Below are positions 14 through 64,000 of a DNA stretch of 64,000 nucleotides, piece after piece. The stretch comes from Opitutales bacterium (lineage in GTDB: Bacteria; Verrucomicrobiota; Verrucomicrobiia; Opitutales; Seribacteraceae), in assembly GCA_028101545.1 (NCBI GenBank), contig JAOHKZ010000005.1, positions 1-64,000 of the forward strand, read 5' to 3'. The notes under the pieces are model-generated. The model saw only the letters and a program-made list of their open reading frames with translations. It did not search any database and was not told the DNA's origin. Each line of letters opens with the position of its first letter. The stretch's first letter is position 1. Both the position numbers and the translations under genes were made by a program.

Positions 14-3000
14 GTGAAAGCCGATGTCACTCCAATTCTACAGCCAAATCCATTTAGGCGGGGAGTAAAACCAACCGAAGCTCTAGAAAAAGCTCTGTCT
101 CGATTGGAAGAGAAAAAAAGAACCATTCTTTTCTATGGCAATTCAATGGTCGAACGCCTTTTAGAGCATGGCGAACTGGAAGCCCGTTTGCAGATCGCAA
201 TTCCAAACCAGAAACTGAAGATTCGTAGCCTTGCCTGGACCGGTGACGAAGTGGGTAATCGTCTGCGACTTGAAAGGTACGCAACTCACATGAATAACCT
301 TCTAAGTAAGTGGCCTGCCAATACAATTGTACTCGGTTACGGAATGAATGAAGCCTTTTCTGGAGAAGCAGGTCTAGATGAATTTTATGAGCATTACGAT
401 ATCCATATAAGACAGATAAAAAATGTTCATCCTGGTGCGAAGATTGTTTTGTTGTCACCCATTGCCACAAAGAGAGCAACTACAGGATTATACACAAAAG
501 CTATTTCCAAGCTAGCAATCAAACACGGAGCGACATTTATAGATATCCACTCAATAACCAGCGAAAGTGGGATAACTGATGGAGGCATTCACCTCAACAG
601 CAAAGGCAACAGCCTCGTTGCTCGTAAAGTTGCAACTGAATTACTCAAATTACGAGGAATTCAAACATCTGATCCTGATCCAAATCATCTCATCGAAGTC
701 GCCAAGGCCACATCTGCCAAACATTTTAGAGTCGCGGAAGTAGTGCGTCCAAAAAATGCTGTTGTCTACTTCGGTGTACGCGGTCGCCCCTACGAATATA
801 ACGGTGAGATGCCTCGCTATCATGAAATGATTCGGCTCACTGAGTCAGTAATTTACGATATTTGCTCAAACCCTGCACTTAAGTTTTCGGAAATACCCAA
901 ACCATCCTTATCACCAATGGGGCCTGGCAAAGGCAGAGATGATGGCGATCGTACGGGAATAATTAAGACCGTTGCAGAAAGTGAGGCTGAGTTTAAAATC
1001 GCCGATGGTTACGAAGTTAATCTTTTCGCATCTGAGGAACAGTTCCCCGAGTTGCGAAATCCAGTGCAAATTACCTTCGATGCAAAAGGACGACTTTGGG
1101 CTGTGACTATGCCCTCTTTTCCGCACACTCCCCCCGGTTTAACTCCTCCAGATAAAATTATTATTCTTGAAGACACCGATCGTGATGGTAAGGCAGATAA
1201 ACTTACCACATTCGCAGAAGGCCTTGATGCTCTTGATGGGGTCGCTTTTCATCGCAATGGAATTATAATTTCCGAACAACCTCGCCTATGGCTTATGCGT
1301 GATACCAATGGAGATGATATCGCGGACACCAAGGAGGAAGTACTTCGCGGAATTGATGTCACCGATACTCACCACGGAGGCATGATAACAACAGATCCTT
1401 ATGGGGATATTATGTTTAGCGATGGTGTATTCCACCGTTCCCAACTTGAGACACCCTTTGGAGTTGTTCGTGGTATTGACGCCACAACCTATCGTCTTAA
1501 TCCCATTACCGGAAGAATTAATACTGAATGGCAGCACACAACTCCGAATCCATGGGGAATAACTTTTGATAAATGGGGAAACACTTTTCAAGTATACGGA
1601 GATGGACAGGTTTATGATGGCAGTTCATTGATTTGGACACCTCTAGGTGCATATCATCCCTTTAGATACGCTCACATATGTAGTTACGGCAAGGGTTCTG
1701 CCGTCGCTTCCGTATCTAGCCCAAATTTTCCCGACCGGTTCAAGCAAGCAGTTGCATCAGCTTCTCTTTTGGGCCGCTATGCTGTAAATCTCACTGCTAT
1801 CTCATACAAAGACGGCATGGTAAAAGAAGTGGACCATGAAGCTATACTTAGTTCACCCAACGCCGCATTTCGTCCCGCTGATGTTGAATTCGGTATGGAT
1901 GGTGCATTATATGTTTCTGATTTCTGTAGTCCAATTATTGGTCACGCTCAGCACCCAATGCGTGATCCGCATTGGGATCACGATTACGGTCGTATTTGGC
2001 GAATCGTTCACACAGGAAATCCGATTGTCAAGGATTGGCCAAAAATTGAAGGAGCTCCTGCTGAAGAACTGTACCAACTTTTACTGCACGAACAGAACAT
2101 AGTCCGCCACCACGCACGCATCGAATTGCGTAAAATTATTAATACAGGGACTGACTTGTTGGACGAATGGTTAAAAAGCATAAGCGGTTCACCCAAGTAT
2201 CTGGAAGGAGTCCTGGAAGTGATTTTTATCCGAGAAGGGTTGAATCAAGCCAGTCCCAATTTAATCCAGAAACTACTTAAATCTGATAACCCACTTCTTC
2301 GTGGTGCAGGGGTTCAGGCTCTACGTCAACAAGCAGACCGTATTCATGATATTGGAGAAATGCTTTCTCCGCTAGTAAACGATCCTCATCCAAGAGTTCA
2401 AATCGAAGTTATCGATGCCGTCGCTCACCTACGGCCAACCTATCCAACTTTAGATACAATTTTGGCAAACATACAACCTGCAAATAAGCATGTTAGTGAC
2501 TCTCTAGCCTATCTTGATTATGGCACCAAGCCGGCCAAGGGTCGCAGCGTTCCAGTTTTAGATGTCACTCCTCAATCTCAGCTCAAGACTTGGCAATACT
2601 TAGGTGAAAATGAACAAAATAAACCTGTTGCAATGCAGTTGGGCCGGACAAAATTACCTGGAGCCGGTTTATTTCGCACTTTTGTTCACTCAAAAAAACA
2701 ACAATCTGCGATCATAGCGATCAATCACAAAAAACTAAAGATCAGGGTTAACGATGTTTTAAAATTCAGTCAAAACTCACTTTGGAGTGGCGACCAACAA
2801 GTCAATGTGGAACTTGTAAACGGATTGAATGTAATCGAAGTTCAATTAAACAAAGGTCGTCGTGCTAATGGAATTATGCCCCCGGTTTATCTCTATGATC
2901 CAGCAGGGCAGGTTTTAGGCAACACCAGTTATCCCGATAATTTAGAAATCTTTAAAGAGTCTGAAGCAGCATATGAAAAGATGATCGCCGAACGGGGCAA

Positions 3001-6000
3001 TCTTCTCTTCGTCCAGGCAGCAGCAGGTCTTCAATTCTCGCCGACAAAAATGAGCGTAACTCCCGGCAGCAAAGTTCGCCTGGTCTTTGATAATCCCGAC
3101 ATCATGATGCATAATTGGGTACTGCTCAAACCTGGCAGCCTGGAAGAGGTTGGCTCTTTGGCTGACAAGCTTGCCGAGCAACATGCCGGTATGGAAAAAG
3201 GTTATCTTCCTGATACCGATAAGATCCTCGTCGCATCCAAACTACTAGGACCAAAAGCCAAGCAGGAACTTGTATTTACAGCTCCGTCAGAGCCGGGCGA
3301 ATACCCATACACTTGTACTTTCCCGGGACATTGGCGAATGATGAAAGGAATACTAATAGTAGCTGAACCGGCACCCCCAAAGAAAGTAATCGAGGCTCCA
3401 TCCGCTGGGAAATCAGTCACTAAAGCGATTGGCGACGGTGTGATGTTTGAAACGACCTCATCACCCAACGGTTTCAAAACGCTCAAACTACCTGCAAAAC
3501 CAGCGGGTAAAATTGTCGCGAACCGAAATACCAATAACGATCCAATTACCATACTAATCGATGGCAAACTTAGCCAGGGATTTGGTCCGGTGTTTGCCAA
3601 TGGTATCAAGAACGGTGCCTATCGTATGGATCTTGGTAAAAAGCAGCCAGTTTCGGCCGTCACGAGTTGGTCATTTAAACAATCCGCTAGCAGAGGAAAC
3701 CAGTTGGTAACCATTTACGGCAGTGCCAACGATGCTGATCCCGGGTGGAATTTCTCAGATAAGAAAACATTTACCAATCTCGGTACCATTAGCACTGATG
3801 GTCAGAAGATCGATCAATACACCGCTCTTTCGCTACGCTCAAAACCGGAGACAAACCTAGGCAACTTTCGCTGGATTGCTTGGCATGTTTCCCCCGTCAG
3901 CAAGCTGAATGAAAACACAGCGTTCCAGGAATTGGCTGTTGAGATTGGTGTGAAAAAGATAGCGAAGGCAGCTAAAAAGTCGAACACCCAACCTAATGTT
4001 ATCTTAGTTATGACAGATGACCAAGGCTGGGCCGAGGTTGGCTTCAATGGCAACGAGATGATCCAAACGCCTAATTTGGATAAGTTTGCTGCCGAGGGGT
4101 TACAGCTCTCGCAGTTCTATGTGTCGCCGATGTGTACACCGACCCGATCATCCCTGATGACCGGTCGGTATCACTACCGCACTGGTGCTCACGATACCTA
4201 TATCGGACGCACCAATATGAATCCGCAGGAGACCACCATCGCCGAAGTGTTTGCCGATGCTGGCTACCGCACGGGTATCTTCGGTAAATGGCACTTGGGC
4301 GAAAACTACCCTATGCGAGCTCAGGATCAGGGCTTTCACGATGTCGTTGTCCACGGTGGGGGTGGGTTGGGTCAGTTTGCTGACTACCCTAGAAATACTA
4401 ACTACAGTCCAGTTCTGCTCTACCAGGATACCTACAAACAATCCGATGGCTATTGCACCGACGTGTTCATTGATGAATCGATCCGGTTTATTAAAGAGAA
4501 TAAAGAAAAGCCGTTCTTTTGCTATGTCCCACTCAATGCGCCGCACGCACCATTCACTGTCGATCAGGAATACAGTGGCCGCTACCAAGGCAAGATCAAG
4601 GAGGGAGGTCGAAAGTGGACGCCAGACATCTATGGGATGATCACTCAGATGGACGAAGCATTCCAGCGCCTGTTGGATACCGTGAAGACCCAGGGACTGG
4701 AGGAGAATACCATCGTCATTTTTACCACCGACAATGGACCTAACTCTACCTACTTCACGGCGGGTCTCAAGGCGCGTAAGGGCAGTGTCTTCGAAAACGG
4801 TTTTCGGGCGCCATTCGTGATTCGCTGGCCAGCCGCTATTGAGGGTGGACGTAAGCTAAGCGATCTCGCTATGCACATCGACCTGCTACCAACTCTGGCA
4901 CAGGCCTGTGATATCCCGATACCTAAAGATTTGCAACTGGATGGCCAGAACATCTTGCCTCTACTCACCGGTGAAATCGAAAAACTAGACGAACGATTTA
5001 TCTTCATGCAGCACAATCGTGGCAATGTACCGGTGAAATATAAAAATGGCATGGCTCGCAAAGGCCCATGGAAAGTGGTGGGCAACAAAGGTACTCCAGA
5101 GGGATTTGAACTGTATCATATCGATAACGATCCTGGAGAGACCAACAACCTCGCAGCCGAACACCCGGAAAAGGTAAAAGCCTGGGTGGCCGAGTATGAG
5201 AAATGGTTTGATGATGTCACCGCTGAGTTGATGGAAATAAAAGGTGCTCCGCACCCCTTTGAGCTAAATCCAGCCCAGCCCTATGACTATCGACTGACAT
5301 GGCAGGATTGGTATGGAGATATGACTGGCTGGAACGCAAAAAACTATGGCAAATGGCATGTTACCAATCCCGGCCTGATCGACAAATTCGACATCACCAT
5401 TCGCACCACTCGCGATACCTATGGCCTACCAACAGAGCTAAAGTTCATCTGGCTCGATCAGGAAAAGAGCATGAAATTCGATAGCACACCGGATCAGATT
5501 CTGTTAGAAGATATCAAGCTCAAGAAAGGCACGGGGTGGATGGAGGCCCAGCTAATCATCGATGGCAAAATCCGATGTGTGCAGGAAATACAAATCAGAC
5601 CACATGGTGTGAAAAGCGTGATCAAATTCCCGGAAGCGAGTCCACCGCGAAGAACCTCAAAGAACTCAAAGTCGAGCACCACACTACCGAAACTAACATC
5701 GCACCCACTACCTGAAGAGGTAAAAGGTCAGTATGTTAGGATCGAACTACCCGGCGGTGGACGCACCCTTTCGTTAGCTGAGGTAATGGTCTTTGAGAAA
5801 GGCGTCAATAAGGCGCTCAACAAGAAAGCCTCACAGTCTTCAATTGCTTTTGATGGGAAACCGGATTTTGCCATCGATGGAAACACCAACGGCGATTACC
5901 ACTCGGGCTCCACGACCCATACCGAAAGCGCCAGGCCCAATCCATGGTGGGAGGTCGACCTGGGCAAAGCCATAGACATAGACGAAATTGCGATCGCCAA

Positions 6001-9000
6001 CCGCACTGATTCCAATGGCGATCGGTTGGAAGGCTTTACTTTGAAAGTGCTTAATGCCAAGCGCGAAGAGGTATACACGAAAAAACAAACCCCACAGTCG
6101 AGCACCATCCAGTTTATCAAAGACGGCGTCAAATCCTCTCAGGTCGCACCGAAGTCCGGTGCCAGCAGAGGCTCGCTAACGAAGTCCGCCCAGGGGGCTG
6201 ATTCGCATCTATTTATCCTGGCCGGTCAATCGAATATGGTTGCTCTCGATCCGGATGTCTCATTTACACCTGCGGTAAATGCAGCTTTCGGCGAAGAGAA
6301 GGTTATTGTCGTCAAAGATGCGCACAATAGTCAATCGATCCGTCGCTGGGTCAAAGGTTGGAGATCGGTTCAAGGTAAGCCCGTGAATAATAGTGGCGAT
6401 CTCTACGACCACTTAGTAGAGAAGGTTAAAGCCGCTACCGAAGGTAAAGCCATTGAAACCGTGACCCTTGTCTGGATGCAAGGCGAAGCAGACGCCGCTG
6501 GCAATCAGGTCGATGTGTATCGATCCAGCCTCGATCGCCTACTGAAGCAATTAAAGAAGGATCTGGATCAAAAAGAGATTCGTTTCGTTCTGGGCAGACT
6601 CAGCGACTACAGTCTCGAAAGTAATAAACATCCCGAGTGGCAAGACATGCGCGATCTGCAAGTCGCCTACGCAGAAGCAACGCCTTTGGGTGCCTGGGTC
6701 GATACCGATGATCTCAATAACAAAACCAGGGACGACAAACCATTCAACGATGTTCACTACACCAAAAACGGCTATCGCATCTTGGGAGAGCGACTGGCAG
6801 AAAAAGCCATCGAGATGCTCGATCCCCAATCAGAGTTAACCTTTCCCGGGGAAAAGAGTAACTTCCGTGGCTATGTGCGCTACAGTGGTATCAAAACCGA
6901 GCACGGACATTTCTCAGTCGTTTGCCCTAAAAAAGCTGCTCCCGGTCGTCCATGGCTGTGGCGCAGTCTGTTCTGGGAAGCGATCCAGCAGTTTAGCAAC
7001 GCCGATCTGAAACTGGTCGACGAAGGCTACCATATCGTGCTGGCTCACGGCGATGTCGCTGGTCACCCGAAAGGCAATCCCAATATCGATGCCGCGTACA
7101 AAATGGTGACTAGTGAGTACGGATTCTCCGAGAAATGCTCCATGGCCTCGATGAGTCGCGGAACCCTTTCACTGTTTCGCTGGGCCAACAGTAACCCCGA
7201 AAAAGTCGAAAGTATCTATGTCGACAATGGTGTCTGTAATGTTCTCAGCTGGCCTGCCGGAAAGCTGGTGCCAGGAAATAACTCGATCGCCAATGGTGCA
7301 CCAACCTCTTGGAAGGATTTCAAAAAGAAGTATGGTTACACCAGCGACGCAGAGGCGCTGAAAACTAAAGAGAATCCGATCGACTTGCTCGAGCCACTGG
7401 CCAAAGCCGGAGTGCCAATCATCACCGTGTGTGGCAACAAGGATAATGCCGTTCCCTACGAAGAAAACGATGCCATCCTCGAACAGCGCTACAAGGCGCT
7501 AGGAGGTGACATTCGGGTAATCGTCGAGAACAAAGGCCACTCCCATGGCATGAAAGACCCGACATCGGTGCTCAAGTTTATCCGTAAGCATACCCGGTCC
7601 ACTTTGGAGGAGTCAGGCACCAAGCAGCCGGAAAACGCCTGGGTCATCGATAACGACGCCGACTGGGTACTGGCAGCCAGCGACCAGACCAATCTACATA
7701 TTGCCGACGGAATGGCCACGCCAACCGCCAAAGAAGCCACCTATCTCAGTAGACTAAAGACTTTCGACAAACCACGCTCACTCAAATCGATCACCCTGGA
7801 CCAGTCGCCTGTCTGGCATAACTGGGAACCGATCAATAATCTCGGACCAAGCAATCTCGGCGATGCTCCGGTAATGGTCACCGTCGGTCCGGATAACTAC
7901 TGGATGTTTGGACGATATGGCGGCAAAGGAAAGAAGGGCTTCAAAGCGGAAAACGCCAAACTGGAAGGATTCGATATTCCCCTTAAGACTACGCCGTTCC
8001 CGAATCAATACGATGCCCCGGGCGGTCTCAAACCAGGCAAAGGCGGCTACCACGCGTGGCAAAGTCGCGATATGCTCAACTGGGTGCATCACGGATCCGT
8101 CACCGAAGGCTTTTCCAGCTGGGTCACCACCGCCGAATACACCGATGGCAAACTATACATTTACTACGACTACCCCAACGACCAGGACCCGCACCTCTAC
8201 ATCGATGACAACCTCACCGATGGCATCCCGGGCAAAAACATGGGCATGGCCTTTGAAGATCCCTCCCACGGATCCGACTGCACCTTCATCCGTGATCTCG
8301 ACGGCAACTTCCACGTCATCTACGAAGACTGGAGCCCGATTAATGCGAGTAAACATTCCTGGGATTCACCATTGGCAGGCCATGCCATCAGTAAAGACGG
8401 TATCGGAAACTTCAAGATTCTAGCACCAGCTGTAGACGAACGCACCAATCCAACGGGGAGATTCGCCGAATACCCCCACCCTCACTGGCACGCGACCATG
8501 CCTGAGAAGTTCCCTGCTAAAAAAGCTACTAAGGATGTGCCAGAACATCGAATCAAAAAGGGGGAGGCAAAAGCCTACGGCCAATATGAAATTCACGAAC
8601 CTGTACAGGACGCCTTTGGCGACTGGGCGTCTATTTGTATTGGTGGTCAATACTACCTATTCGCCGACTTCCACCCCGCCAACGAAAAGATACGAGTCGG
8701 CTGGTTCACCTCATCGGCAATTAACGAGCCTTTTACCTTTTGCGGAGAAATCGGTAATGGCCACCCTGATCCAGACATCATGTTTGCCGAAGGCAAGTTC
8801 TACCTAGCCACCCAGCAGTCCACCGACTACATAAGTACTGGCCCCTGGGTAGAAAGCGTCGAAGTAAGAGTCGGCGTCGACACTAACAACGATGGAAAAG
8901 TCAATCAATGGTCTGATTGGCAGGAAGTAAAGGAAAGTTATGATTATGTTTCGGGGTTCTCAAAACAGGTGGCAAAAACTTCGGCTTCAATTGATTTAAC

Positions 9001-9115
9001 TTATCTTCCTGAGGGCTATGGTTTCCAGTTTGAGACCCGAATGAATGACACAACCGAAAACTCATCTAAGCCTATTTTGGACTCCGTAACTATAGAGTTT
9101 GGACCACGGGAATAG
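14..9115 (+). CDS. Giant multidomain secreted-type enzyme, partial at 5' edge: SGNH hydrolase + PVC-type propeller (membrane-bound dehydrogenase-like) + HEAT-like region + plastocyanin/auracyanin-like domain + sulfatase + discoidin-like + SGNH/sialate esterase-like + alpha/beta-hydrolase + GH43/GH32-like propeller
   Basis: Single open frame of 3033 aa, still open upstream of GTG at 14 (codons CAC AAG ATT CCT precede it). Motifs: FYGNSMVERLL; GYEVNLFASEEQFPELRNPVQITFDAKGRLWAVTMPSFP; YPYTCTFPGHWRMMKGILIV (blue-copper C/H/M ligands); PNVILVMTDDQGWAEVGFNGN...CTPTRSSLMTGRY (sulfatase); NPWWEVDLGKAIDIDEIAIANRTD (F5/8 type C-like); HLFILAGQSNM (SGNH/SASA); SMASMSRGTLSLFRWA (alpha/beta hydrolase nucleophile elbow-like); SRDMLNWVHHG...GNGHPDPDIMFAEGKFYLATQ (GH-like propeller). 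Confidence 0.85.
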   Translation: MKADVTPILQPNPFRRGVKPTEALEKALSRLEEKKRTILFYGNSMVERLLEHGELEARLQIAIPNQKLKIRSLAWTGDEVGNRLRLERYATHMNNLLSKWPANTIVLGYGMNEAFSGEAGLDEFYEHYDIHIRQIKNVHPGAKIVLLSPIATKRATTGLYTKAISKLAIKHGATFIDIHSITSESGITDGGIHLNSKGNSLVARKVATELLKLRGIQTSDPDPNHLIEVAKATSAKHFRVAEVVRPKNAVVYFGVRGRPYEYNGEMPRYHEMIRLTESVIYDICSNPALKFSEIPKPSLSPMGPGKGRDDGDRTGIIKTVAESEAEFKIADGYEVNLFASEEQFPELRNPVQITFDAKGRLWAVTMPSFPHTPPGLTPPDKIIILEDTDRDGKADKLTTFAEGLDALDGVAFHRNGIIISEQPRLWLMRDTNGDDIADTKEEVLRGIDVTDTHHGGMITTDPYGDIMFSDGVFHRSQLETPFGVVRGIDATTYRLNPITGRINTEWQHTTPNPWGITFDKWGNTFQVYGDGQVYDGSSLIWTPLGAYHPFRYAHICSYGKGSAVASVSSPNFPDRFKQAVASASLLGRYAVNLTAISYKDGMVKEVDHEAILSSPNAAFRPADVEFGMDGALYVSDFCSPIIGHAQHPMRDPHWDHDYGRIWRIVHTGNPIVKDWPKIEGAPAEELYQLLLHEQNIVRHHARIELRKIINTGTDLLDEWLKSISGSPKYLEGVLEVIFIREGLNQASPNLIQKLLKSDNPLLRGAGVQALRQQADRIHDIGEMLSPLVNDPHPRVQIEVIDAVAHLRPTYPTLDTILANIQPANKHVSDSLAYLDYGTKPAKGRSVPVLDVTPQSQLKTWQYLGENEQNKPVAMQLGRTKLPGAGLFRTFVHSKKQQSAIIAINHKKLKIRVNDVLKFSQNSLWSGDQQVNVELVNGLNVIEVQLNKGRRANGIMPPVYLYDPAGQVLGNTSYPDNLEIFKESEAAYEKMIAERGNLLFVQAAAGLQFSPTKMSVTPGSKVRLVFDNPDIMMHNWVLLKPGSLEEVGSLADKLAEQHAGMEKGYLPDTDKILVASKLLGPKAKQELVFTAPSEPGEYPYTCTFPGHWRMMKGILIVAEPAPPKKVIEAPSAGKSVTKAIGDGVMFETTSSPNGFKTLKLPAKPAGKIVANRNTNNDPITILIDGKLSQGFGPVFANGIKNGAYRMDLGKKQPVSAVTSWSFKQSASRGNQLVTIYGSANDADPGWNFSDKKTFTNLGTISTDGQKIDQYTALSLRSKPETNLGNFRWIAWHVSPVSKLNENTAFQELAVEIGVKKIAKAAKKSNTQPNVILVMTDDQGWAEVGFNGNEMIQTPNLDKFAAEGLQLSQFYVSPMCTPTRSSLMTGRYHYRTGAHDTYIGRTNMNPQETTIAEVFADAGYRTGIFGKWHLGENYPMRAQDQGFHDVVVHGGGGLGQFADYPRNTNYSPVLLYQDTYKQSDGYCTDVFIDESIRFIKENKEKPFFCYVPLNAPHAPFTVDQEYSGRYQGKIKEGGRKWTPDIYGMITQMDEAFQRLLDTVKTQGLEENTIVIFTTDNGPNSTYFTAGLKARKGSVFENGFRAPFVIRWPAAIEGGRKLSDLAMHIDLLPTLAQACDIPIPKDLQLDGQNILPLLTGEIEKLDERFIFMQHNRGNVPVKYKNGMARKGPWKVVGNKGTPEGFELYHIDNDPGETNNLAAEHPEKVKAWVAEYEKWFDDVTAELMEIKGAPHPFELNPAQPYDYRLTWQDWYGDMTGWNAKNYGKWHVTNPGLIDKFDITIRTTRDTYGLPTELKFIWLDQEKSMKFDSTPDQILLEDIKLKKGTGWMEAQLIIDGKIRCVQEIQIRPHGVKSVIKFPEASPPRRTSKNSKSSTTLPKLTSHPLPEEVKGQYVRIELPGGGRTLSLAEVMVFEKGVNKALNKKASQSSIAFDGKPDFAIDGNTNGDYHSGSTTHTESARPNPWWEVDLGKAIDIDEIAIANRTDSNGDRLEGFTLKVLNAKREEVYTKKQTPQSSTIQFIKDGVKSSQVAPKSGASRGSLTKSAQGADSHLFILAGQSNMVALDPDVSFTPAVNAAFGEEKVIVVKDAHNSQSIRRWVKGWRSVQGKPVNNSGDLYDHLVEKVKAATEGKAIETVTLVWMQGEADAAGNQVDVYRSSLDRLLKQLKKDLDQKEIRFVLGRLSDYSLESNKHPEWQDMRDLQVAYAEATPLGAWVDTDDLNNKTRDDKPFNDVHYTKNGYRILGERLAEKAIEMLDPQSELTFPGEKSNFRGYVRYSGIKTEHGHFSVVCPKKAAPGRPWLWRSLFWEAIQQFSNADLKLVDEGYHIVLAHGDVAGHPKGNPNIDAAYKMVTSEYGFSEKCSMASMSRGTLSLFRWANSNPEKVESIYVDNGVCNVLSWPAGKLVPGNNSIANGAPTSWKDFKKKYGYTSDAEALKTKENPIDLLEPLAKAGVPIITVCGNKDNAVPYEENDAILEQRYKALGGDIRVIVENKGHSHGMKDPTSVLKFIRKHTRSTLEESGTKQPENAWVIDNDADWVLAASDQTNLHIADGMATPTAKEATYLSRLKTFDKPRSLKSITLDQSPVWHNWEPINNLGPSNLGDAPVMVTVGPDNYWMFGRYGGKGKKGFKAENAKLEGFDIPLKTTPFPNQYDAPGGLKPGKGGYHAWQSRDMLNWVHHGSVTEGFSSWVTTAEYTDGKLYIYYDYPNDQDPHLYIDDNLTDGIPGKNMGMAFEDPSHGSDCTFIRDLDGNFHVIYEDWSPINASKHSWDSPLAGHAISKDGIGNFKILAPAVDERTNPTGRFAEYPHPHWHATMPEKFPAKKATKDVPEHRIKKGEAKAYGQYEIHEPVQDAFGDWASICIGGQYYLFADFHPANEKIRVGWFTSSAINEPFTFCGEIGNGHPDPDIMFAEGKFYLATQQSTDYISTGPWVESVEVRVGVDTNNDGKVNQWSDWQEVKESYDYVSGFSKQVAKTSASIDLTYLPEGYGFQFETRMNDTTENSSKPILDSVTIEFGPRE

Positions 9116-40569: not shown

Positions 40570-40896
40570 TTATTTTTTCCTCCACCAAAGACATCTGCCC
40601 TTTAGGCATGTCCAGGAGTATGAGGGATCGGAATGAACCGAATCGAGTCCATTCTTTTTAGCGATGTCTACCCACTCTTCCAGCCATCGGCAGATAGGTT
40701 GGCTGCCTTTTGAGACTTTGATATAGAGGACCTCTTCGTCTTTAAACAATTTCCCGGCCTCAGGCATGAAACCAGCATTGGGGTTCATCCGCACCATATT
40801 CGATTGCCCGGAGAGAATGAACAGGTGAACCGGCTTGTCCGCTGCTGTTACTACAGATGCAGTGAGCAAGAGTGTTAAAAGGGTGATGATTTTCAT
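40570..40896 (-). pseudogene. Truncated chimeric SGNH esterase gene: paralog of 49787..50560 fused to a patch of the 43922..45148 gene
   Basis: First ~85 codons match MKTLSLF..GLD of 49787..50560; then SVHSDPSYS, identical to the fuconate dehydratase ORF (DSVHSDPSYS); then an out-of-context tail CLKGRCLWWRKK. Confidence 0.85.
40642..40887. repeat. Direct repeat copy 1 (SGNH gene 5' portion)
   Basis: Ungapped hand alignment to 50288..50533; about 18 mismatches in 246 positions. Confidence 0.85.
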
Positions 40897-43832: not shown

Positions 43833-43921
43833 TAGAGTCGAGTCAAGCGGTTTTAGTGTTACCTGAGGTTTCGATTTTTTTGGAACAATAATTTTCACGA
43901 ATCTGACGGGCTTCTCTTCAA

Positions 43922-55000: not shown

Positions 55001-55577
55001 GCCCCGGACCAGCCACTCCATCAAATTCAAAATCTGTGATCGGAACATCATTGATAAATGTCTGATAGCGATCATCGAGCGACCGGATCAAAAATGAGTT
55101 CCATTCACTTGGTTTGAAGGCGCCTTTGATTGGTTTTGTTTTTTCCTTCTCCATATCAGGACTAAGCCAAAGTTGTCTGGAACCATCCTTTTTCTTCATC
55201 GCTTCGCCGTATATAAAGCCTGACCTGCCTCCGGCGATTTCAACCTGGGGTCCAATCAGGTGAGCACCTTCACGCAATGGTATGGAGCGAATTTGGCAAC
55301 CTGAGTTCAGTCCGAGATCCAGTTTCACCTCAAACTTGAGCTCGAGATTACGGTATTTCTGCTTGGTTGTCATGAACCCATTTCCTTCTTTTGGGACCGA
55401 GATACCGACAATGCTTTGATCAACAATTTCATAGGTGTGCTTACCACCGGTCTGAAACCATCCGTCAAAGGACTTACCGTCGAACAGCTTGACCCAATCT
55501 GCAGCCCCGGCAAAAGGAGCAAAGAGGGTCATCATAAATAGACAAAGTAAAAAGGAATGAGTTTGATAGGATTTCAT
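52023..55577 (-). CDS. DUF1080 + DUF6797-like + propeller + cytochrome c fusion protein
   Basis: WVKLFDGKSFDGWFQTGGKHTYEIVDQSIVG (DUF1080); YPYLDTSKGRAGYEFAGEETNTYRMYDFYKRQAKHHL; propeller IDFDQDGAAYICTLMGDLWKV; FKMFCIGCHGPEGKGLPSIAPTLHSDWV (CIGCH cytochrome c). Confidence 0.85.
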   Translation of the reverse strand: MKSYQTHSFLLCLFMMTLFAPFAGAADWVKLFDGKSFDGWFQTGGKHTYEIVDQSIVGISVPKEGNGFMTTKQKYRNLELKFEVKLDLGLNSGCQIRSIPLREGAHLIGPQVEIAGGRSGFIYGEAMKKKDGSRQLWLSPDMEKEKTKPIKGAFKPSEWNSFLIRSLDDRYQTFINDVPITDFEFDGVAGPGHIGLQVHGVKKPELVGKKVRFRNIYLKEVQSVEEEVEDDEAVSTTVSPPKIEPALYPYLDTSKGRAGYEFAGEETNTYRMYDFYKRQAKHHLQKDQELNLLPAYTDLDGGIFGHWGNYSENGHKDYRWHKMDYGPALKASYSINIKNRAAKGNMLNLLLPGDYTVTFDHKNGEYFNYWKGRPTFNPHRWGLIHGVIVPTGVKPSDLSAWFGPIERDGQSISRYLGHYTYGRRVMMHYEIGDTRFLENISRMKNGCFVRMVSALEKGVALFPIKLDGYKDWEIKTNGNMIVGTKDGRSIVGAAKSFSKDKGTLLSPDLKKGKWISSATANAYKVYYWEGPSAEADKVISSIKADQKTDPLPMWTKGGKANWPQLFKEKVKIAGSDKAYVIDRIDVPFDNPWGSMMLFSGIDFDQDGAAYICTLMGDLWKVMGLEAGMKEVTWKRYATGLDQPFGLRVIDGLPHVMTRGGIVCPKDLNEDDEADYYEEYFSFPSYKYMGHTGTFGFHIDKERNMYFVNSTSAYRKPWNKDPEQLASGMRNAMAVGASQDGVFLVGPQEGIWTPSSAVLEMQKGDYYGMGPDHLNKDSYKENDKKITPAMAYLPRGIDNSTGGFEFPVSERFGPLSGEIVGLSYGYGSWYQILRNDDYADYNRAQGTIVPLPGEFRAGGMRGAINPKDGMFYAVGSDGWGNYSLDDGSLERVRYTGNPYPMLKKVHGYENGIELQFSSKLSGKAASQAKSYFVQQWNYEYSPAYGSLEYSVKRPSQEGHDRVRVKSVKILPDQKSVFLEIPNLLPALQTHIFAELETEEGPLEMNAFATLVHLDKAKKGFAEPMPALKSRTASLRIRGSKADKERVALNTANTPKGRIRAGETLFKMFCIGCHGPEGKGLPSIAPTLHSDWVSGDREILVKVLLKGLGGQIKVNGELQNYEAAMPGFGPALGDDEIASILSYVRSAWTDAPADVTSAFVKKIRGAEKGKTGPYEAQQLWERVAPR

Positions 55578-57156: not shown

Positions 57157-58029
57157 TTACTTGGATTTTTTCTTTTTCTTTGAAGATGTAATTTCGAAAG
57201 TATTGATCTTTGTATCCGCACTTGGAACTTTCTGATCAGCCGCCCAAAAAATTCCGTTAATTATCAATCTTACCGAATTGGGATCTCCAAAATCATTAAG
57301 ATGACCAAGGGAAGTGGAAAAAGTTCTGCCTCCCCATTTGTTGGTCCATGTCCATGCCACCACATCCGTCATTTCCGGCTTAAGATGATGCGTACCAAAT
57401 CGGTTTGTTCGTACTGCAGCTTTTTTATCCCTTGGGTGCCCAGTCCCCAATAAAAGAGGTGTGGTTCCTTTTTCCATTTTGGTCAGATAGAGCGTACCCC
57501 GGGATCCCCAATTTTCATCAGCTTGAACGCCGGTAAAAACCGGGTGTTTATTCCTCCCCTGCTCCACTTTCAGGCGAGTGGGACCACTAAGATGAATGCG
57601 GTAGGGTGAACCAAGAGCATCCCGGCCAAACCCATCGTTCCACTTTTGATTGGGATGTTCATCAGGATAATTAAACCCGTGCGTGCTCGTCCGAAAACCC
57701 ACCACTGGCTTTCCTGATTTCAGGTAATCGGTGATATGAACGAGTTGTTGATCATCAATTTTTAAAAACCGGGTATAGAAAATGGCTAGATCTGCTTTTT
57801 TCAATGCTTCCAGACCCGGTAATCCCCTCTTGTCTTTTTCTGGATCCCAGTCCGGATTAATTACGGTTGTCTTAAAACCGAGACGCTCGATTTCGGATGC
57901 GAGCATCGGCATCGATTTCTGGGGGGAATAATGATGAGTACCCACCACAAATAACGCATGTGGTTTCTCTCCATGCAGAAAAGAGAGAGCACATACGAAG
58001 AAGGAAAGAAAGAATAATTTAAATATCAT
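57157..58029 (-). CDS. ThuA-domain protein
   Basis: HALFVVGTHHYSPQKSMPMLASEIERLGFKTTVINP; VVGFRTSTHGFNYP; RTFSTSLGHLNDFGDP; C-terminus SSKKKKKSK. Confidence 0.85.
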   Translation of the reverse strand: MIFKLFFLSFFVCALSFLHGEKPHALFVVGTHHYSPQKSMPMLASEIERLGFKTTVINPDWDPEKDKRGLPGLEALKKADLAIFYTRFLKIDDQQLVHITDYLKSGKPVVGFRTSTHGFNYPDEHPNQKWNDGFGRDALGSPYRIHLSGPTRLKVEQGRNKHPVFTGVQADENWGSRGTLYLTKMEKGTTPLLLGTGHPRDKKAAVRTNRFGTHHLKPEMTDVVAWTWTNKWGGRTFSTSLGHLNDFGDPNSVRLIINGIFWAADQKVPSADTKINTFEITSSKKKKKSK

Positions 58030-58085: not shown

Positions 58086-59507
58086 CTACTCAACAGGCGG
58101 CTTGTAGGCATCTTCGTTCACCAGCCTCGGCTGAACCTTGGTCCACCATCTGTCGTATATCGCACGCAGTTGGGCCACTACTTCGGGATATTCATTGATA
58201 ACGTTTTTAGTTTCACCGGGGTCGTTTTTGAGGTCGAAAAGCTCCTCCCCATTCTTGTTATTCACCAGAGTAAATCGTTTGTTCTGGATCGAAACTCTTT
58301 TGTGTTTCGATTGGGCGGCCTGGCCCGGTTCCCAGGCACCCACGTGGTGCACCAAATGCCGGTCGTCCTCCCAATCAGTCGCAGGGTTCTTAAGTATAGG
58401 AATAAGGCTGCGTCCCTCTACCTGTTGCTTAAGCTGATCCGTCATAGGAGTACCGGTAATTTCCAGCAGGGTTGGCATGATGTCCATTTGGCTTATCAAT
58501 GTTGTGCATTCAACACCACCCTTAATACCGCCGCCCGGCCATCTGAAGAATGCAGGTACACGGGTACCGCCCTGATATGGGTGACCCTTTTGACCATTCA
58601 TCCCGGCATTGTAAACTTTCGCAGTTCCCGAAGCGCCATTGTCACTTCCAATGAAGATGAATAAAGTGTTGTCAGCGATTCCCCATTCTTCGAGTTGCTG
58701 AATCAGCTCGCCGATACATTTATCGATGTATTCAACCTCCCAATAGATCTTCGCAACCTGTACATTCATTTGCGGATGGGATCCAAGAAATTTTTTATAA
58801 TCTTCATTCGGCATATCACTCGAATCGGCTTTGTAAGGGCCGTGGGGCGATTTTGGTGGGAGATAAACGAAGAAGGGTTTCTTTGTCTGACGTTGAACAT
58901 CCATCCACTCTGTTGCCTTATTAAAAAATAAATCAGTGGGATAAGTGCCATCCATTCTCTTCGGGTTTCCATTGTGAGAGATAGTGGCTTTCATTCTTGA
59001 GCCCTTTTCGTAAACCCAGCTAACATCGAACCCGCGATTCTCAGGACGGTAAGGCCCTTCTCTACCATTGTGCCACTTGCCAAACATACCCGTGACATAC
59101 CCGGCTGTTTTCAGGGCTTGTGGCAGAGTGATCGTATCCAGGCTCAAGCGCTCGCGCCCTTGGATGGTATGCGTAACACCACTCATAAATTCATGGCGAC
59201 CGCTCAGGAGTTTAGCACGACTGGGAGAGCACCTTGCACTGGAGTGATACTGCGTTAAGAGCAAACTTTGTTCCTTAAGGGAATCTATATTTGGGGTCTT
59301 TATGACCGGATTACCGAAACAGGAATGATTCCCATAACTGGAATCATCCGGCATAATTATAATAATGTTTGGCTTGGAACCTTTTAAAGCTTTTGCCTCA
59401 ACTCCTATTGAGAATGTCATCATTGCCATGATCCCGCAAATGAACATGAACGCTTTTGTGCAATTCCAAATTGTTGAGCCAAAAAATCGATTAATCGTTT
59501 TTTCCAT
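58086..59507 (-). CDS. Sulfatase
   Basis: KPNIIIIMPDDSSYGNHSCFGNPVIKTPN; CSPSRAKLLSGRHEFMSGV; GKWHNGREGPYRP; GSDNGA. Confidence 0.9.
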   Translation of the reverse strand: MEKTINRFFGSTIWNCTKAFMFICGIMAMMTFSIGVEAKALKGSKPNIIIIMPDDSSYGNHSCFGNPVIKTPNIDSLKEQSLLLTQYHSSARCSPSRAKLLSGRHEFMSGVTHTIQGRERLSLDTITLPQALKTAGYVTGMFGKWHNGREGPYRPENRGFDVSWVYEKGSRMKATISHNGNPKRMDGTYPTDLFFNKATEWMDVQRQTKKPFFVYLPPKSPHGPYKADSSDMPNEDYKKFLGSHPQMNVQVAKIYWEVEYIDKCIGELIQQLEEWGIADNTLFIFIGSDNGASGTAKVYNAGMNGQKGHPYQGGTRVPAFFRWPGGGIKGGVECTTLISQMDIMPTLLEITGTPMTDQLKQQVEGRSLIPILKNPATDWEDDRHLVHHVGAWEPGQAAQSKHKRVSIQNKRFTLVNNKNGEELFDLKNDPGETKNVINEYPEVVAQLRAIYDRWWTKVQPRLVNEDAYKPPVE

Positions 59508-59613
59508 ATTTAGTAATGTTTCGAATATCGAAATTGTTTCCAAAAAAAAGCAAATTTGTAAATTAGCCATTAGTCTAATCCTTTGAGTCCTAGCCAGGAA
59601 GAACCGTCCAAGA

Positions 59614-60282
59614 TTAGCTGATTCTTTCGCTAAATTCTACAAGGTCTGAAACTGTAATCGTTGGCTCAATACCCCATGGGTCAAAAACTGCACCGAAGGA
59701 TCTTTTCACCCATGCAGATTGAAGCCCGGCTGAAGTGGCACCTATCACATCAAATGGATTGCTTGAAACCAACCAGGCTTCACTGGCAGTTGATTCTGAC
59801 TCTCTTAAAAAATGAAGATAGACGGATGGATCCGGCTTAAACGACTTAACATTGTCAACGCTAACAACCCCAGTGAAGAATTTCCTAAGATCAGCGGCAT
59901 TGAGCAGTGCTTCTACATCTTCACATTTCCCATTTGAAAAAGCATACAATTTATGCCCCGACTCAACCAAATCGGATAAACCATTTACGGTGTCTGGAAA
60001 TGGAGGTAACTCTTTATAAAATTTCAACAACGAGTCTTTCTGAGAATCAGAAAGATCAGCCTGATAATAGTCTGAAGTGTAGTCTAATGCCTGTCTCGTG
60101 CAGATAGAAAAATCCTCATAATCTTGCATCAACCCTTTCCGAAAAGAGTACTCCAATTGTTTATTTCTCCATGTTAAAGAGAATTCCTCAGCAAGATCTC
60201 CAATAAAACCTTTTAGAAGGAAAACGACTCCCTGGATATCAAAGAGAGTTCCGTAAATGTCGAATGCGATTTTTAAAGGCAT
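59614..60282 (-). CDS. HAD-superfamily L-2-haloacid dehalogenase-like protein
   Basis: FDIYGTLFDIQGV; LTWRNKQLEYSF; AFSNGK; KSFKPDPSVYLHFL; WLVSSNPFDVIGATSAGLQSAWVKR. Confidence 0.82.
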   Translation of the reverse strand: MPLKIAFDIYGTLFDIQGVVFLLKGFIGDLAEEFSLTWRNKQLEYSFRKGLMQDYEDFSICTRQALDYTSDYYQADLSDSQKDSLLKFYKELPPFPDTVNGLSDLVESGHKLYAFSNGKCEDVEALLNAADLRKFFTGVVSVDNVKSFKPDPSVYLHFLRESESTASEAWLVSSNPFDVIGATSAGLQSAWVKRSFGAVFDPWGIEPTITVSDLVEFSERIS

Positions 60283-60350: not shown

Positions 60351-61958
60351 CTAACCCTCAAAGTATGCGATCAGTTGATCGATCTTGGGAAGTACTGTGT
60401 CGTCTTCGCCTGCGTGTAATTTAATCTCAACCTGAAAACCTCTGCCTGCCGGCAAATCGGAAAAGGAGACTTTTGCGGGCTTACAATCAACCTGTTTTGA
60501 GAAGCCTTTGATTTTTGAATAAGTTTCTTCAGCATCCTGCCATTTTGACCATTGATCGATCTTGCCGTCGCCATCCTTATCGACTCCTGCCCTTAGTTTG
60601 GCCATACCGACCCAGGGGCCATCGCTAACGAAGTCAGTAGCTGTCTGGGTAATCAGATAAAATTTACCATCCGCAAACATGACGTCGGGGTCGGGGTGAC
60701 CGGAGCCAATATGTCCATAGAAACGAAATGGTTTATTGATATCTTCTGAAGTAAAGAGTGCGACGCTCATGCCACTACGATCATGTACACCGGCTGGATC
60801 GTAGTCGCCCACGAGGTAATACTGTCCATCGATGGCAATGGCGGCCCAGTCCCCGAAAGCATCCTGTTCGGGCTCATGGATTTCATAGGTCACCACTTTC
60901 TCCTCATCATTCCAATGGGGATGCTCAAAGGTGGCCGTCCTACCGGTTGGCTTGGTTCGATAGTCCACCGCAGGTTCAAGAATTTTGAAATTTCCGATTC
61001 CGTCATCACTCACCATATGACTGGCCAAGGGTGAGTCCCATGAACGTTTGGAAGCATTGATTGGCTGCCAATTTTCCGAAATCATATGAAATTTTCCCTC
61101 TAGGTCCCGAATCACGCCCACATCCGAACCGCCCCAGGGTGCGTCGAATGCGAGACCTTTGTCTTCGCCGGGCATACCATCCCGCAAGTCGCTATCGATG
61201 ATGAGATGTGGATCCCGGTCATTGGGGCGGTCGTAATAGAAATAGGTTTTACCCTCCTTGTATTCCGCCGTGGTCACGGTCGGAGCCATGGCCGTGGGAC
61301 CGTAATGCACCCAATTGATCATGTCGCGACTGTGCCAGGCATGGTAACCACTTTTCCAAGCTCGTTGGTAGGGGCGATCAGTGACTTCTGCCTTGGTTTC
61401 GGCTGGGCGATATTGATTCGGAAAAGGAGTCGTTACTAGTTTCTCGTCATACCCTTCAAGGCTTACTTCTTCCGGTTCGAACCCATCAAGAGTGAACCCA
61501 AGAGGCGGAGGTGGCTTCCTTTTTTTGTTCTTGGCTTCTTCAACCTTTTTTTGATGCCATTCTACGATTTGCTCGGCTGATCGGTACTGAGCGATAGCCC
61601 AATGATCATTGGGACCATGACTGATCAAGACCGGTGCATTCCTCATATTAAGATTGTATATGGAATACGGTTTCCAGTTCATCCATTCGACACTTTGCTT
61701 AAGCTCGATGTCCCGCAAATTGGCCGGCTTGGCGAATTTTTTCAACTTACTGGTGAAGGATACCTCTCGCTTCTGTGCGATGGCATGTCCATCTGCGACC
61801 TTGACCCCTTTGGACTTAGAAATGAATCCCTGCCAATCCTTGGTCGTGGAAACTTTCCAACGAGGATCTGTCTTATTGGGAGTTGCCTGAAGTGATGTCG
61901 CTAAACTGATGACCATGGTAACCAAGCCATAAACGAAAATAGAGAATAATTTATTCAT
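60351..61958 (-). CDS. Secreted GH43/GH32-like five-bladed propeller protein, paralog of the C-terminal module of 14..9115
   Basis: ATG at 61958 gives MNKLFSIFVYGLVTMVISLATSLQA; AWHSRDMINWVHYG...WQPINASKRSWDSPLASHMVSDDGIGNFKILEPAVD...GSGHPDPDVMFADGKFYLITQ aligns along its length with the end of the giant ORF. Confidence 0.82.
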   Translation of the reverse strand: MNKLFSIFVYGLVTMVISLATSLQATPNKTDPRWKVSTTKDWQGFISKSKGVKVADGHAIAQKREVSFTSKLKKFAKPANLRDIELKQSVEWMNWKPYSIYNLNMRNAPVLISHGPNDHWAIAQYRSAEQIVEWHQKKVEEAKNKKRKPPPPLGFTLDGFEPEEVSLEGYDEKLVTTPFPNQYRPAETKAEVTDRPYQRAWKSGYHAWHSRDMINWVHYGPTAMAPTVTTAEYKEGKTYFYYDRPNDRDPHLIIDSDLRDGMPGEDKGLAFDAPWGGSDVGVIRDLEGKFHMISENWQPINASKRSWDSPLASHMVSDDGIGNFKILEPAVDYRTKPTGRTATFEHPHWNDEEKVVTYEIHEPEQDAFGDWAAIAIDGQYYLVGDYDPAGVHDRSGMSVALFTSEDINKPFRFYGHIGSGHPDPDVMFADGKFYLITQTATDFVSDGPWVGMAKLRAGVDKDGDGKIDQWSKWQDAEETYSKIKGFSKQVDCKPAKVSFSDLPAGRGFQVEIKLHAGEDDTVLPKIDQLIAYFEG

Positions 61959-62010
61959 AGGAGGAAGTTCGTAGAATCTAAAGGCTGAATCCTTGGAGGT
62001 AAAAATTGGA

Positions 62011-62766
62011 CTAAGGTCTGCCGTCTTCCGCAGGCTGTTCTCCTTTGATAAGTGCATAGCCCTGGCGCACGAAGCGTTGGCCGAGAATGATGTAACCTTC
62101 CGGTCTGTTGTAGTGAACTGCGTTGCTGACCTTCCCATCCTTTTCTCGATCATTGAGATCATCCACATCGACCCAGGCACCACTAGGATCTTCATCGACA
62201 ATTTCCATCTGGATCTTTCGCATGGCCGCCCAACTTTCTTTTTTCTCACCAGCATCGCTTAAGCGGCCGATGACGATGTTCATGTCGGGTCGCTTCAAAT
62301 CACGGCGCAATTTACTAATCAATAGCTTCAAGGCATCTTTATAGGCAGGCTGTCCGCCGCCGTTGGCATCGCGTTCTCCCTGCATCCAGCAAAATGTTAC
62401 GGAATTGAACTTAGGATGTTTCTTCAACATCTCCTTGTACTGATCCAAAATCGGTTGATAAAACTCTACCTCCCCACCCTTGTGAATTCTTTTTATGTCG
62501 TTTTCACGGAGTCCATTCTTTTTTGCAATATCCTGCCATTCTTCGAGCCACCTGCATATGGGCTGTCCACCTTTTGCCACTTTGATATAAACAACCTTTT
62601 CATCCTTAAAAAGTTTCTTTGCCTCCGGCATGAACCCGGTCTCCGGATCCATGCCCTGCATATTGGATTGCCCGGATAGGACAAAAAGATGAACGGGGTT
62701 CTCCGCTTCAGCTTTAACAATGAGAAATGCACTTAGTGCGAGTGATAGTACGGTTATTATTTTCAT
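62011..62766 (-). CDS. SGNH/sialate O-acetylesterase-like esterase
   Basis: VHLFVLSGQSNMQGMD; VTFCWMQGERDANG; AVHYNRPEGYIILGQRFVRQGYALIKGEQPAEDGRP. Confidence 0.85.
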   Translation of the reverse strand: MKIITVLSLALSAFLIVKAEAENPVHLFVLSGQSNMQGMDPETGFMPEAKKLFKDEKVVYIKVAKGGQPICRWLEEWQDIAKKNGLRENDIKRIHKGGEVEFYQPILDQYKEMLKKHPKFNSVTFCWMQGERDANGGGQPAYKDALKLLISKLRRDLKRPDMNIVIGRLSDAGEKKESWAAMRKIQMEIVDEDPSGAWVDVDDLNDREKDGKVSNAVHYNRPEGYIILGQRFVRQGYALIKGEQPAEDGRP

Positions 62767-62806
62767 ATAAAAATTCAGATGTTTAATGCCTCGTTTATTT
62801 CGCTAT

Positions 62807-64000
62807 TTATTCCCCGCTCTGTTGGTCCAGCTGCTTCTGGGTGAATAAGCGTTTGGCATCTTCCTTCATCTCTGAATGGGGGAAGATTTCAGCAGTCCAA
62901 CCAGCGAGATTTGATGGTTTGACCAATCGTTCTCTGGCTGGAGTGTAACGGCCAAAGGTGGGGGTGAAAGGCCCGACAAAATTGACATTTGCATTCGGGT
63001 CGATCTCATCCGCCAAATCACTGGCCCAGAAAACGGCATTGATCAGCATACGACGAAAACCACCATTTACGATATCCGGTGAGCCACCATAGATTGTGGT
63101 AAAAACCTTGCCAACGGGTCCGCCCTCAAATTGGTAACTCCGCGTCCAAGCAGCGGGCATGGGGGGCCTCTCCGTAAGCACTTCAGAATTTGGATAGATA
63201 TCAACAAGAGGCTGAGCCATGGCCAGTACATCACATTCATCCCCCAATACAGCCTTGTAGCCACCTCCATAGGCCCATCCGTCGCTAACACCAAGATTAA
63301 TTGGATGTTTCGACTTTTCCGGAACGACATCGATCCGAACACTCTGCAGATGATTTCGGCTGTAGTGCCCACCATACTTCGACCAACTCAAACCCAGTAT
63401 CTGCTTACCAAAACCGTAAGTAAAATCATCCCCTTTATAGTCATCGGAAAACCGGGCATAAGGACCACTTTTGTCCTTAATCTTAAATGCATGAGTAGTT
63501 GTACGCAGACCGATAACCGGGCCTCCCCTCTTAAGATAGGAAATGAGATGCTCCATCTGATCCGCCTTCCAATCCTGAAAACGGAGAAAAAGAAAGAGCA
63601 GGTCGGCATCAGCAAGAACATCCATTCCTGGAATGTAATTACTCCCTTTCTTGATATGACCCTGACCATCCTGACCAAAGAGTACGGTGCATTTGAATCC
63701 TAATCGTTTTGCCAAAATACGGGCGATCGCGGGACAGGTTTCTTCTGAATGATATTCATGATCGGAAGCAATAAAAACGATGTGCTTACCAACACCCGGC
63801 CCAGACTTACCCTGGTATACGAGAATTTCGTCTCCCTTGTTTTTTAGGGGGGACCTAGGTGAGGCCTTTTTTATTAAGTTTGTCTTCTTCCCTGCCGATT
63901 CGGGTTGTTTCTTTTCGACAATCATCATGCTGGTCATCATCCGCCAATGGCCGGGGAAAGTACATAAGACAGGATAACGGCCAGGCTTTTCCGGAGTGGT
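62807..64000 (-). CDS. Plastocyanin-like (C-terminal part) + ThuA fusion, partial at right edge
   Basis: Frame stays open to 64000: TTPEKPGRYPVLCTFPGHWRMMTSMMIVEKK (blue-copper ligand motif), then HIVFIASDHEYHSEETCPAIARIL and VIGLRTTTHAF (ThuA). Confidence 0.82.
   Translation of the reverse strand, partial: TTPEKPGRYPVLCTFPGHWRMMTSMMIVEKKQPESAGKKTNLIKKASPRSPLKNKGDEILVYQGKSGPGVGKHIVFIASDHEYHSEETCPAIARILAKRLGFKCTVLFGQDGQGHIKKGSNYIPGMDVLADADLLFLFLRFQDWKADQMEHLISYLKRGGPVIGLRTTTHAFKIKDKSGPYARFSDDYKGDDFTYGFGKQILGLSWSKYGGHYSRNHLQSVRIDVVPEKSKHPINLGVSDGWAYGGGYKAVLGDECDVLAMAQPLVDIYPNSEVLTERPPMPAAWTRSYQFEGGPVGKVFTTIYGGSPDIVNGGFRRMLINAVFWASDLADEIDPNANVNFVGPFTPTFGRYTPARERLVKPSNLAGWTAEIFPHSEMKEDAKRLFTQKQLDQQSGE

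Follow-up and report, generated by a model that had tools for sequence, protein, structure and literature searches.

Is the gene cluster at the right edge of an Opitutales contig an unfused version of the giant multi-enzyme protein encoded at its left end, and do the parts of both work as a set? The stretch of DNA analysed (64,000 nucleotides of contig JAOHKZ010000005.1; the window) holds both loci, and the initial annotation had taken the first to be so and, from it, argued for the second. In the sea, sulfated polysaccharides of algae are hard to degrade, and, to our knowledge, most genes found near sulfatases in PVC bacteria have no known role. Domain content, homology, separate phylogenies and matched fusions elsewhere were computed here.

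The giant ORF (P0001; 2..9115, plus strand; 3037 aa, truncated at the 5ʹ side where the contig begins) joins SGNH, PVC propeller, cupredoxin, discoidin-like, sulfatase, F5/8, SASA, alpha/beta-hydrolase (ABH) and GH modules in that order, all on the plus strand. Domain searches place the SGNH module at 110-877, followed by the PVC propeller (965-2503), whose fold is nearest to PQQ sugar dehydrogenases, and an azurin-like cupredoxin with CTFPGHWRMM and MHNW ligand motifs (2957..3364; PF00127, 5e-10). The discoidin-like linker domain (3425..3946) is without a Pfam match and recurs in the loci L133, L134, L216, L241-L243 and L246. Next come an S1 sulfatase (3977..5251; PF00884, 5e-61), in which the C-x-P-x-R motif appears as the formylglycine motif CTPTR at residue 1378, an F5/8 type C domain (5777..6139; PF22633, 8e-14) and a SASA esterase (6182..6835; PF03629, 1e-24). 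The chain ends with the ABH (6857..7591; SMSRG nucleophile elbow), which is 82-83% identical to that of L133 and 78-79% to those of the fused planctomycete proteins L134 and L241, and a GH43-like propeller (7625..9106; 77% to L133 and 74% to L134, contiguous with the ABH). The similarity of residues 2-36 to a ThuA-SGNH junction makes it probable that the protein also begins with a ThuA domain beyond the contig start; nothing resembling this missing piece was found among the genome's ThuA matches. Cohesin and dockerin domains, the mark of the cellulosome, were absent from the giant, L133 and L134.

The right-edge cluster lies on the minus strand, and domain searches bore out the order, coordinates and domains (plastocyanin-like/ThuA, SGNH esterase, GH-like) first assigned to it. 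The window contains the C-terminal 397 aa (62807..64000) of a 1480-aa protein whose gene runs past the right end. Extending the contig to the right, as the initial annotation had proposed, gave the whole gene (contig 62807-67249, or L009:8808-13250) and, ahead of the plastocyanin-like domain, a PVC propeller. The layout is SGNH (residues 33-210), PVC propeller (DUF7133/TIGR02604, from 329), HEAT, azurin-like cupredoxin (Copper-bind, 998-1112) and ThuA2 (ThuA, 1210-1409), with the copper loop CTFPGHWRMM present, CxxCH absent and a likely lipobox, LAAC, in the signal peptide, as read from the sequence. Next are a 251-aa SASA/SGNH carbohydrate esterase (62011..62766; PF03629, 8e-22; GQSN motif) and a 535-aa GH43-like protein of the five-bladed-propeller type (60351..61958; PF04616, 7e-5, under the cut-off), each with its own signal peptide; that of the GH begins at 61958, and an in-frame ATG at 62255 corresponds to an upstream extension into the SASA gene. 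The cluster continues on the same strand with a HAD type II hydrolase (59614..60282; TIGR01428, 3e-52), the sulfatase of a conserved SASA-GH-SULF-ThuA1 cluster (58086..59570; a 90% orthologue follows the GH in the relative G022) and a stand-alone ThuA1 (57157..58029; PF06283, 8e-13). Against the PF06283 gathering score of 33.4, ThuA1 scores 49.5 and ThuA2 26.5. In the tree, ThuA1 sits closest (97) to ThuA domains that form the N-terminal part of SGNH-PVC-CU fusions in other genomes; its identity is 68% to L249, 64% to L133 and 62% to L208 of Haloferula rosea. SASA orthologues (94%) adjoin the GH in the close relatives G016 and G022. The G016 locus retains an ECF sigma gene (96% identity), a 318-aa gene (89%), SASA and GH (94%); the PVC gene is absent from it and was not seen at the G022 locus. 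A conserved PVC-SASA-GH operon was rejected on the basis of these orthologous loci.

What the parts resemble bears on whether the PVC-cupredoxin and ThuA modules are oxidative enzymes or instead regulatory, sensory or sugar-binding. Both N-terminal propellers pass the TIGR02604 cut-off of 122.2 bits (162.5 and 170.3), and the CxxCH haem motif was not found in the giant, the cassette, L133 or L216A. Both cupredoxins exceed the Copper-bind cut-off (40.0 and 36.4 bits over 21.2) and carry the type 1 copper ligand motif; neither reaches the equivalog cut-off of azurin sensu stricto (TIGR02695; 38.0 and 26.0 bits against 105.1). The top PDB fold matches of the propeller model, which is of moderate confidence (overall pLDDT 67), are PQQ glucose dehydrogenases at 12-18% identity, and a PDB sequence search with the propeller gave only HEAT repeats and spurious teneurin matches. 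A non-oxidative role would accord with a propeller family, DUF7133, that is uncharacterised and has no solved homologue by sequence. However, the folds nearest to it belong to sugar dehydrogenases, the cupredoxins retain their copper ligands, and in relatives (L067) a cytochrome c takes the cupredoxin's position, as expected of an electron acceptor. Such a role is therefore considered rather unlikely.

Both SASA modules pass the PF03629 cut-off of 24.8 bits (78.3 and 87.5). The cassette GH scores 22.7 bits against the GH43 family PF04616, under the gathering score of 32.2; its AF2 model (pLDDT 90.5) has GH43 enzymes as best PDB matches (E 8e-9) with low TM (0.2-0.56), and a PDB sequence search with it returned only a chance match (E 0.46). 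Sulfatases occur in 58 of the 80 named GH loci, in favour of the kit proposed below; speaking against it, few of the 80 loci have a PVC gene at 10 kb or less from the GH once fusions are set aside (eight with fusions included). Genes for 3-keto-disaccharide hydrolases (DUF1080) were also observed nearby; this family includes 3-ketoglycoside hydrolases (PMC9007349).

Fusions in other genomes address the second part of the question. One homologue of the giant (73-83%) is L133, a 2729-aa protein of a Verrucomicrobiales MAG with the order ThuA-SGNH-PVC-CU-disc-ABH-ThuA-GH, where CU is the cupredoxin and disc the discoidin-like domain. The planctomycete isolate Neorhodopirellula pilleata encodes a 1792-aa protein (L134; beta-helix-PDZ-disc-ABH-GH) whose ABH-GH part is 74% identical to the giant over 755 aa. 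Further fusions include beta-helix-disc-F5/8-SASA-ABH in a planctomycete MAG (L241; 63% over 702 aa with giant residues 1855-2550) and beta-helix-disc-ABH in CA13 (L242). Unfused arrangements occur as well, and Akkermansiaceae MAGs hold versions matched to the giant. One such MAG (L243) has adjacent genes for PVC-CU-disc (58%) and SULF-ABH (ABH 69%). L246 has beta-helix-disc, SULF-disc, SULF, ABH, beta-helix and GH genes on one strand, and in L225 beta-helix-PDZ-disc precedes a GH of the same clade (71%). For the cassette, the match is the single protein L208 of H. rosea, which combines a ThuA domain (62% to ThuA1) with SGNH-PVC-CU (61% over 1085 aa); the separate cassette proteins are the closest kin of its two halves and form a Rosetta-stone pair with it (PVC clade 100, ThuA clade 97, 61-62% identity). 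Distantly related bacteria thus fuse similar parts in varying combinations, a pattern suggesting that these parts act jointly. These comparisons support a recurrent set of parts in Verrucomicrobiota and Planctomycetota, and the functional set proposed earlier is strengthened by fusions and matched fused/unfused pairs elsewhere, but not by the cassette-giant pair from which it had been argued.

Alternatively, the co-occurrence could be neutral, with neighbours and fusions arising by chance rearrangement in PVC genomes rich in genes for ThuA, PVC propellers, esterases and sulfatases. In planctomycetes, sulfatase genes are reported to be fused and rearranged frequently (PMC4807772), many PVC copies exist per genome, and orders vary. 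Against this, a specific ABH-GH block (74-77%) stays fused across two phyla, the disc-ABH-GH order recurs with different insertions, the fusions are in frame with motifs intact as checked in the giant, and H. rosea provides a matched pair. Chance rearrangement alone is thus judged unlikely.

The first part of the question, whether the cassette is a direct unfused counterpart of the giant, its duplicate or ancestor, with the common order recording that history, can be answered from the modules themselves. Homology between the sets is real: the 1480-aa protein aligns with the giant at 36% identity over 1126 aa (E=0), the SASA modules at 35% (4e-42) and the GH modules at 45% (1e-142), the last confirming the kinship already noted between the GH-like modules. 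Three homologous modules on one contig do stand in the same relative order, and the collinearity takes in the entire SGNH-PVC-CU block rather than plastocyanin alone. The chance probability of a common order is P=0.17 for the chosen three modules, rising to 0.42 with the sulfatase included and to 0.65 with ThuA1 as well; this is not significant, and the order was rejected as evidence of shared history. The giant GH branches among GHs from other fusions (L133, L134), and the cassette GH falls in a separate deep clade (sisterhood rejected, AU p=9e-52); the giant SGNH-PVC groups with L133 and L216 and that of the cassette with H. rosea L208 (sisterhood rejected, AU p=8e-55); and the SASA modules lie apart. 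The module-pair phylogenies thus gave the outcome that the initial annotation had named as contrary to its reading, and the cassette proteins are not orthologous to the fused modules of P0001 as a Rosetta-stone pair would be. That the cassette was copied directly into the giant was rejected on the phylogenies of GH and PVC and their AU tests, and would be credible again only if both phylogenies erred alike. With the PVC gene also missing at the G016 locus and not seen at that of G022, a counterpart relationship is highly improbable; judged by their sequences, the two sets are old cousins, not copies. The sulfatase was rejected as a common partner of both: the sulfatases of the giant, the cassette and L249 belong to different subfamilies, and the sulfatase slot is therefore not one conserved partner. 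That the giant is an assembly or frame artefact is barely credible, since, although the ORF runs into a contig end of a draft assembly (92 contigs, 57% complete), the same junctions are fused in independent assemblies, one an isolate, and 3037 codons are open without a stop.

It is reasonably probable that the giant and the genes at the right edge belong to one modular kit as ancient members with independent inheritance, and that this kit serves the extracytoplasmic degradation of a sulfated polysaccharide with ester decorations, probably from algae. We infer joint secretion, this substrate and the following order of reactions and electron transfer. The sulfatase, SASA/SGNH esterases and ABH would remove decorations, and the PVC propeller, resembling quinoprotein sugar dehydrogenases, would oxidise a sugar hydroxyl; to go by adjacency, the azurin-type copper domain would accept the electrons. 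ThuA would handle the oxidised sugar, and the GH43-like propeller would cut the glycosidic bond. In evolution, blocks of modules may be exchanged between adjacent genes and one-chain proteins, which would explain why fused and unfused arrangements of varying content turn up repeatedly in both Verrucomicrobiota and Planctomycetota. More tentatively, these proteins could represent a cross-phylum family of giant secreted enzymes, in which an oxidising unit (a quinoprotein-like propeller with its own copper acceptor) is joined to sulfatase, esterases and GH on one chain, and verrucomicrobia and planctomycetes swap catalytic blocks between their operons and polypeptides. The repeated fusions link uncharacterised families (PVC propeller, ThuA, GH43-like and ABH), supply single proteins for expression and assay from the cultured isolates N. 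pilleata and H. rosea, and raise the testable possibility that a single chain couples oxidation to hydrolysis.

A literature search for such a fusion found nothing specific, and several known systems share some of its features. In Porphyra-associated planctomycetes, gene fusion has joined sulfatases to glycoside hydrolase, esterase and HEAT domains in multi-domain proteins, and operons are shuffled and heterophyletic (PMC4807772). However, these were characterised by protein length and domain mix, and the portion of that report drawn on here describes neither a ThuA-SGNH-PVC-cupredoxin-sulfatase-SASA-hydrolase-GH chain nor cross-phylum exchange of blocks. The multi-modular planctomycetotal CAZymes (PMC11131199) likewise carry several catalytic modules per chain but consist chiefly of cellulases and xylanases that bear binding modules, whereas here an oxidoreductase-like propeller-cupredoxin pair accompanies a sulfatase, esterases and an unclassified GH. 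Marine Verrucomicrobiota polysaccharide utilisation loci (PMC8857213) are similarly sulfatase-rich; that study centred on sulfated methyl pentoses, whereas the GH-like family here is without an assigned substrate. Soluble PQQ glucose dehydrogenase, the best PDB fold match of the PVC propeller, is alike in fold only, at the 12-18% identity given above. Finally, the propeller is common to the PVC-type heme-binding proteins (TIGR02604/DUF7133), but here an azurin-type copper domain replaces their CxxCH haem motif.

The multi-enzyme open reading frame at the left end of the window (2-9115), here termed the giant, is truncated by the contig start and runs for 3037 residues without a stop. Its modules are, in order, SGNH, a PVC propeller, an azurin-like cupredoxin (CU), a discoidin-like domain (disc; labelled NPCBM in scripts, with no Pfam match), a sulfatase (SULF), F5/8, SASA, an alpha/beta-hydrolase (ABH) and a GH43-like domain (GH). 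The first residues (2-36) match a 1654-aa protein from the single-cell genome AH-707-L10 at its ThuA-SGNH junction, so the missing N-terminus, off the contig, probably carries a ThuA domain preceding SGNH. Where checked, motifs are intact in the sulfatase (CTPTR), the copper loop (CTFPGHWRMM) and the esterases (GNS and GQSN); a search for a CxxCH haem motif found none. Two further fused proteins, both of which carry a pair of sulfatase domains on a single chain, lie at 11193-14009 (+) and at locus L010 of this genome (2-3280, -), and gene fusion thus seems frequent among its sulfatase clusters.

The giant is a member of a recombining protein family. A 2729-aa protein of a Verrucomicrobiales MAG (L133; ThuA-SGNH-PVC-CU-disc-ABH-ThuA-GH) matches it at 73-83% block by block. 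In the cultured planctomycete Neorhodopirellula pilleata Pla100, a 1792-aa protein (L134; beta-helix-PDZ-disc-ABH-GH) shares 74% with the giant's ABH-GH across 755 contiguous residues, and a Planctomycetaceae MAG protein (L241; beta-helix-disc-F5/8-SASA-ABH) matches residues 1855-2550 at 63% in a single stretch. Planctomycetes bacterium CA13 has beta-helix-disc-ABH (L242). These architectures thus show a disc-ABH-GH backbone, sometimes preceded by SGNH-PVC-CU, in which the insertions are sulfatase-F5/8-SASA in the giant, a second ThuA in L133 and a beta-helix head in planctomycetes. In a Verrucomicrobia MAG (L249:7469-13227, -), a sulfatase-ThuA1-SGNH-PVC-CU chain is split over two frames; either a giant has decayed here or the assembly is wrong.

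The contig, from a draft genome that is 57% complete, is 92,277 bases long, and the window covers its positions 1-64000; judged by this locus, close relatives are the marine verrucomicrobial single-cell genomes AG-430-C07 and AG-919-G08 and an Opitutia MAG. Gene content at the right edge is as initially annotated, except that the first gene continues past the window. Extending the contig rightward yields one 1480-aa protein (62807-67249, -), SGNH-PVC propeller-cupredoxin-ThuA, in which the propeller does precede the plastocyanin-like domain, the point that the initial annotation had wanted checked. Next come a SASA esterase (62766-62011, -) and a GH43-like protein (61958-60351, -), both with signal peptides of their own, and then a HAD hydrolase, a sulfatase and a stand-alone ThuA (ThuA1, 57157-58029). 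Directly upstream of the cluster lie an ECF sigma factor (TIGR02989, Rhodopirellula/Verrucomicrobium family) and a 318-aa partner that matches no family (L009:13289-14787, -). A second SASA gene (49790-50560, -; 74% identical to the cassette copy) and a short fragment of a third (40642-40896, -; 72%) suggest local duplication and decay. Within the sulfatase region, TRAP transporter genes and an enolase-superfamily (MR_MLE) gene (40964-45148, -) are compatible with sugar-acid uptake and breakdown.

The initial annotation took this cassette for a partly collinear, unfused version of the giant and, by Rosetta-stone logic, saw in this support for a functional set. Homology of the modules is certain: the SGNH-PVC-cupredoxin blocks align at 36% identity over 1126 residues, SASA at 35% and GH at 45%. 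Shared order is uninformative, with a chance of P=0.17 for three modules, and of P=0.42 for the longest common order with sulfatase counted or P=0.65 with ThuA1 as well. Direct pairing is contradicted by the trees, an outcome that the initial annotation had itself named as refuting it. In the GH tree (106 rows), the giant is sister to L133 (support 95) inside a four-row clade (99) with L134 and a stand-alone GH from genome G330, and the cassette GH falls in a separate deep clade of eight. In the SGNH-PVC tree, the giant groups with L133 (99) and L216/L205, and the cassette with L208, L207 and L209 (100). In AU tests, a sister pair of giant and cassette is rejected for SGNH-PVC (p=8e-55) and likewise for GH (p=9e-52). 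In the poorly resolved SASA tree, the cassette copy clusters with its own orthologues and the 49790-50560 copy, apart from the giant's.

Rosetta-stone logic itself works once partners other than those initially proposed are taken. The fusion that corresponds to the right-edge cluster is L208 of Haloferula rosea KCTC 22201: the ThuA at its N-terminus shares 62% identity with ThuA1, and its remainder matches the cassette PVC protein at 61% over 1085 residues; the trees concur. Unfused forms of the giant's blocks occur in two Akkermansiaceae MAGs: L243 has a gene with PVC-CU-disc at its end (58% identical to the giant), 26 bases, then SULF-ABH (ABH 69%), and L246 carries beta-helix-disc, SULF-disc, SULF, ABH (63%), beta-helix and GH (63%) separately on one strand. 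G330 (L225) has a GH from the giant's GH clade placed after a beta-helix-PDZ-disc gene. AH-707-L10 encodes, on one contig and strand, ThuA-SGNH-PVC-CU-disc, SULF-disc-ABH and a GH of another subclade. In genome G019 (C18:30571-31755, -; locus L040), a GH43-like gene is disrupted by stops and frame changes, with an intact ThuA-F5/8-SGNH-PVC-cupredoxin gene upstream. Bearing more directly on the shared order, orthologues of the cassette locus read sigma factor (96%), 318-aa gene (89%), SASA and GH (94%) in G016, where the sigma pair is retained without the PVC gene, and SASA, GH, sulfatase (90%) and ThuA1 (96%) in G022; the PVC gene has thus been either gained in this genome or lost from the others.

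Modelled with AlphaFold (pLDDT 90.5), the cassette GH best matches GH43 enzymes by fold (E 8e-9) but with low TM-scores, and it is therefore termed GH43-like, not GH43. For the giant's propeller-cupredoxin, the model is only of moderate confidence (pLDDT 67, with most propeller blocks at 70-95), but the eleven top-ranked PDB structures are without exception sugar dehydrogenases, most of them PQQ-dependent. In a planctomycete (L067), cytochrome c follows the propeller; the cupredoxin here thus plausibly replaces it as electron acceptor. DUF1080, a family whose members include 3-ketoglycoside hydrolases (PMC9007349), is encoded in the window and beside the cassette. One 1184-aa protein (52023-55577, -) joins an N-terminal DUF1080 (3-keto-disaccharide hydrolase) domain to a C-terminal cytochrome c domain. 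What is shown is domain content, motifs and fold similarity; in the chain proposed, sulfate and ester groups would be removed, the sugar oxidised, the oxidised sugar handled by ThuA, and cleavage would follow.

In the literature searched, which covered few subscription journals, no precedent was found for the giant's architecture or for cross-phylum block exchange. Already known are multi-modular CAZymes, surveyed in Planctomycetota (PMC11131199), and sulfatase gene fusion and shuffling, reported in planctomycetes (PMC4807772).
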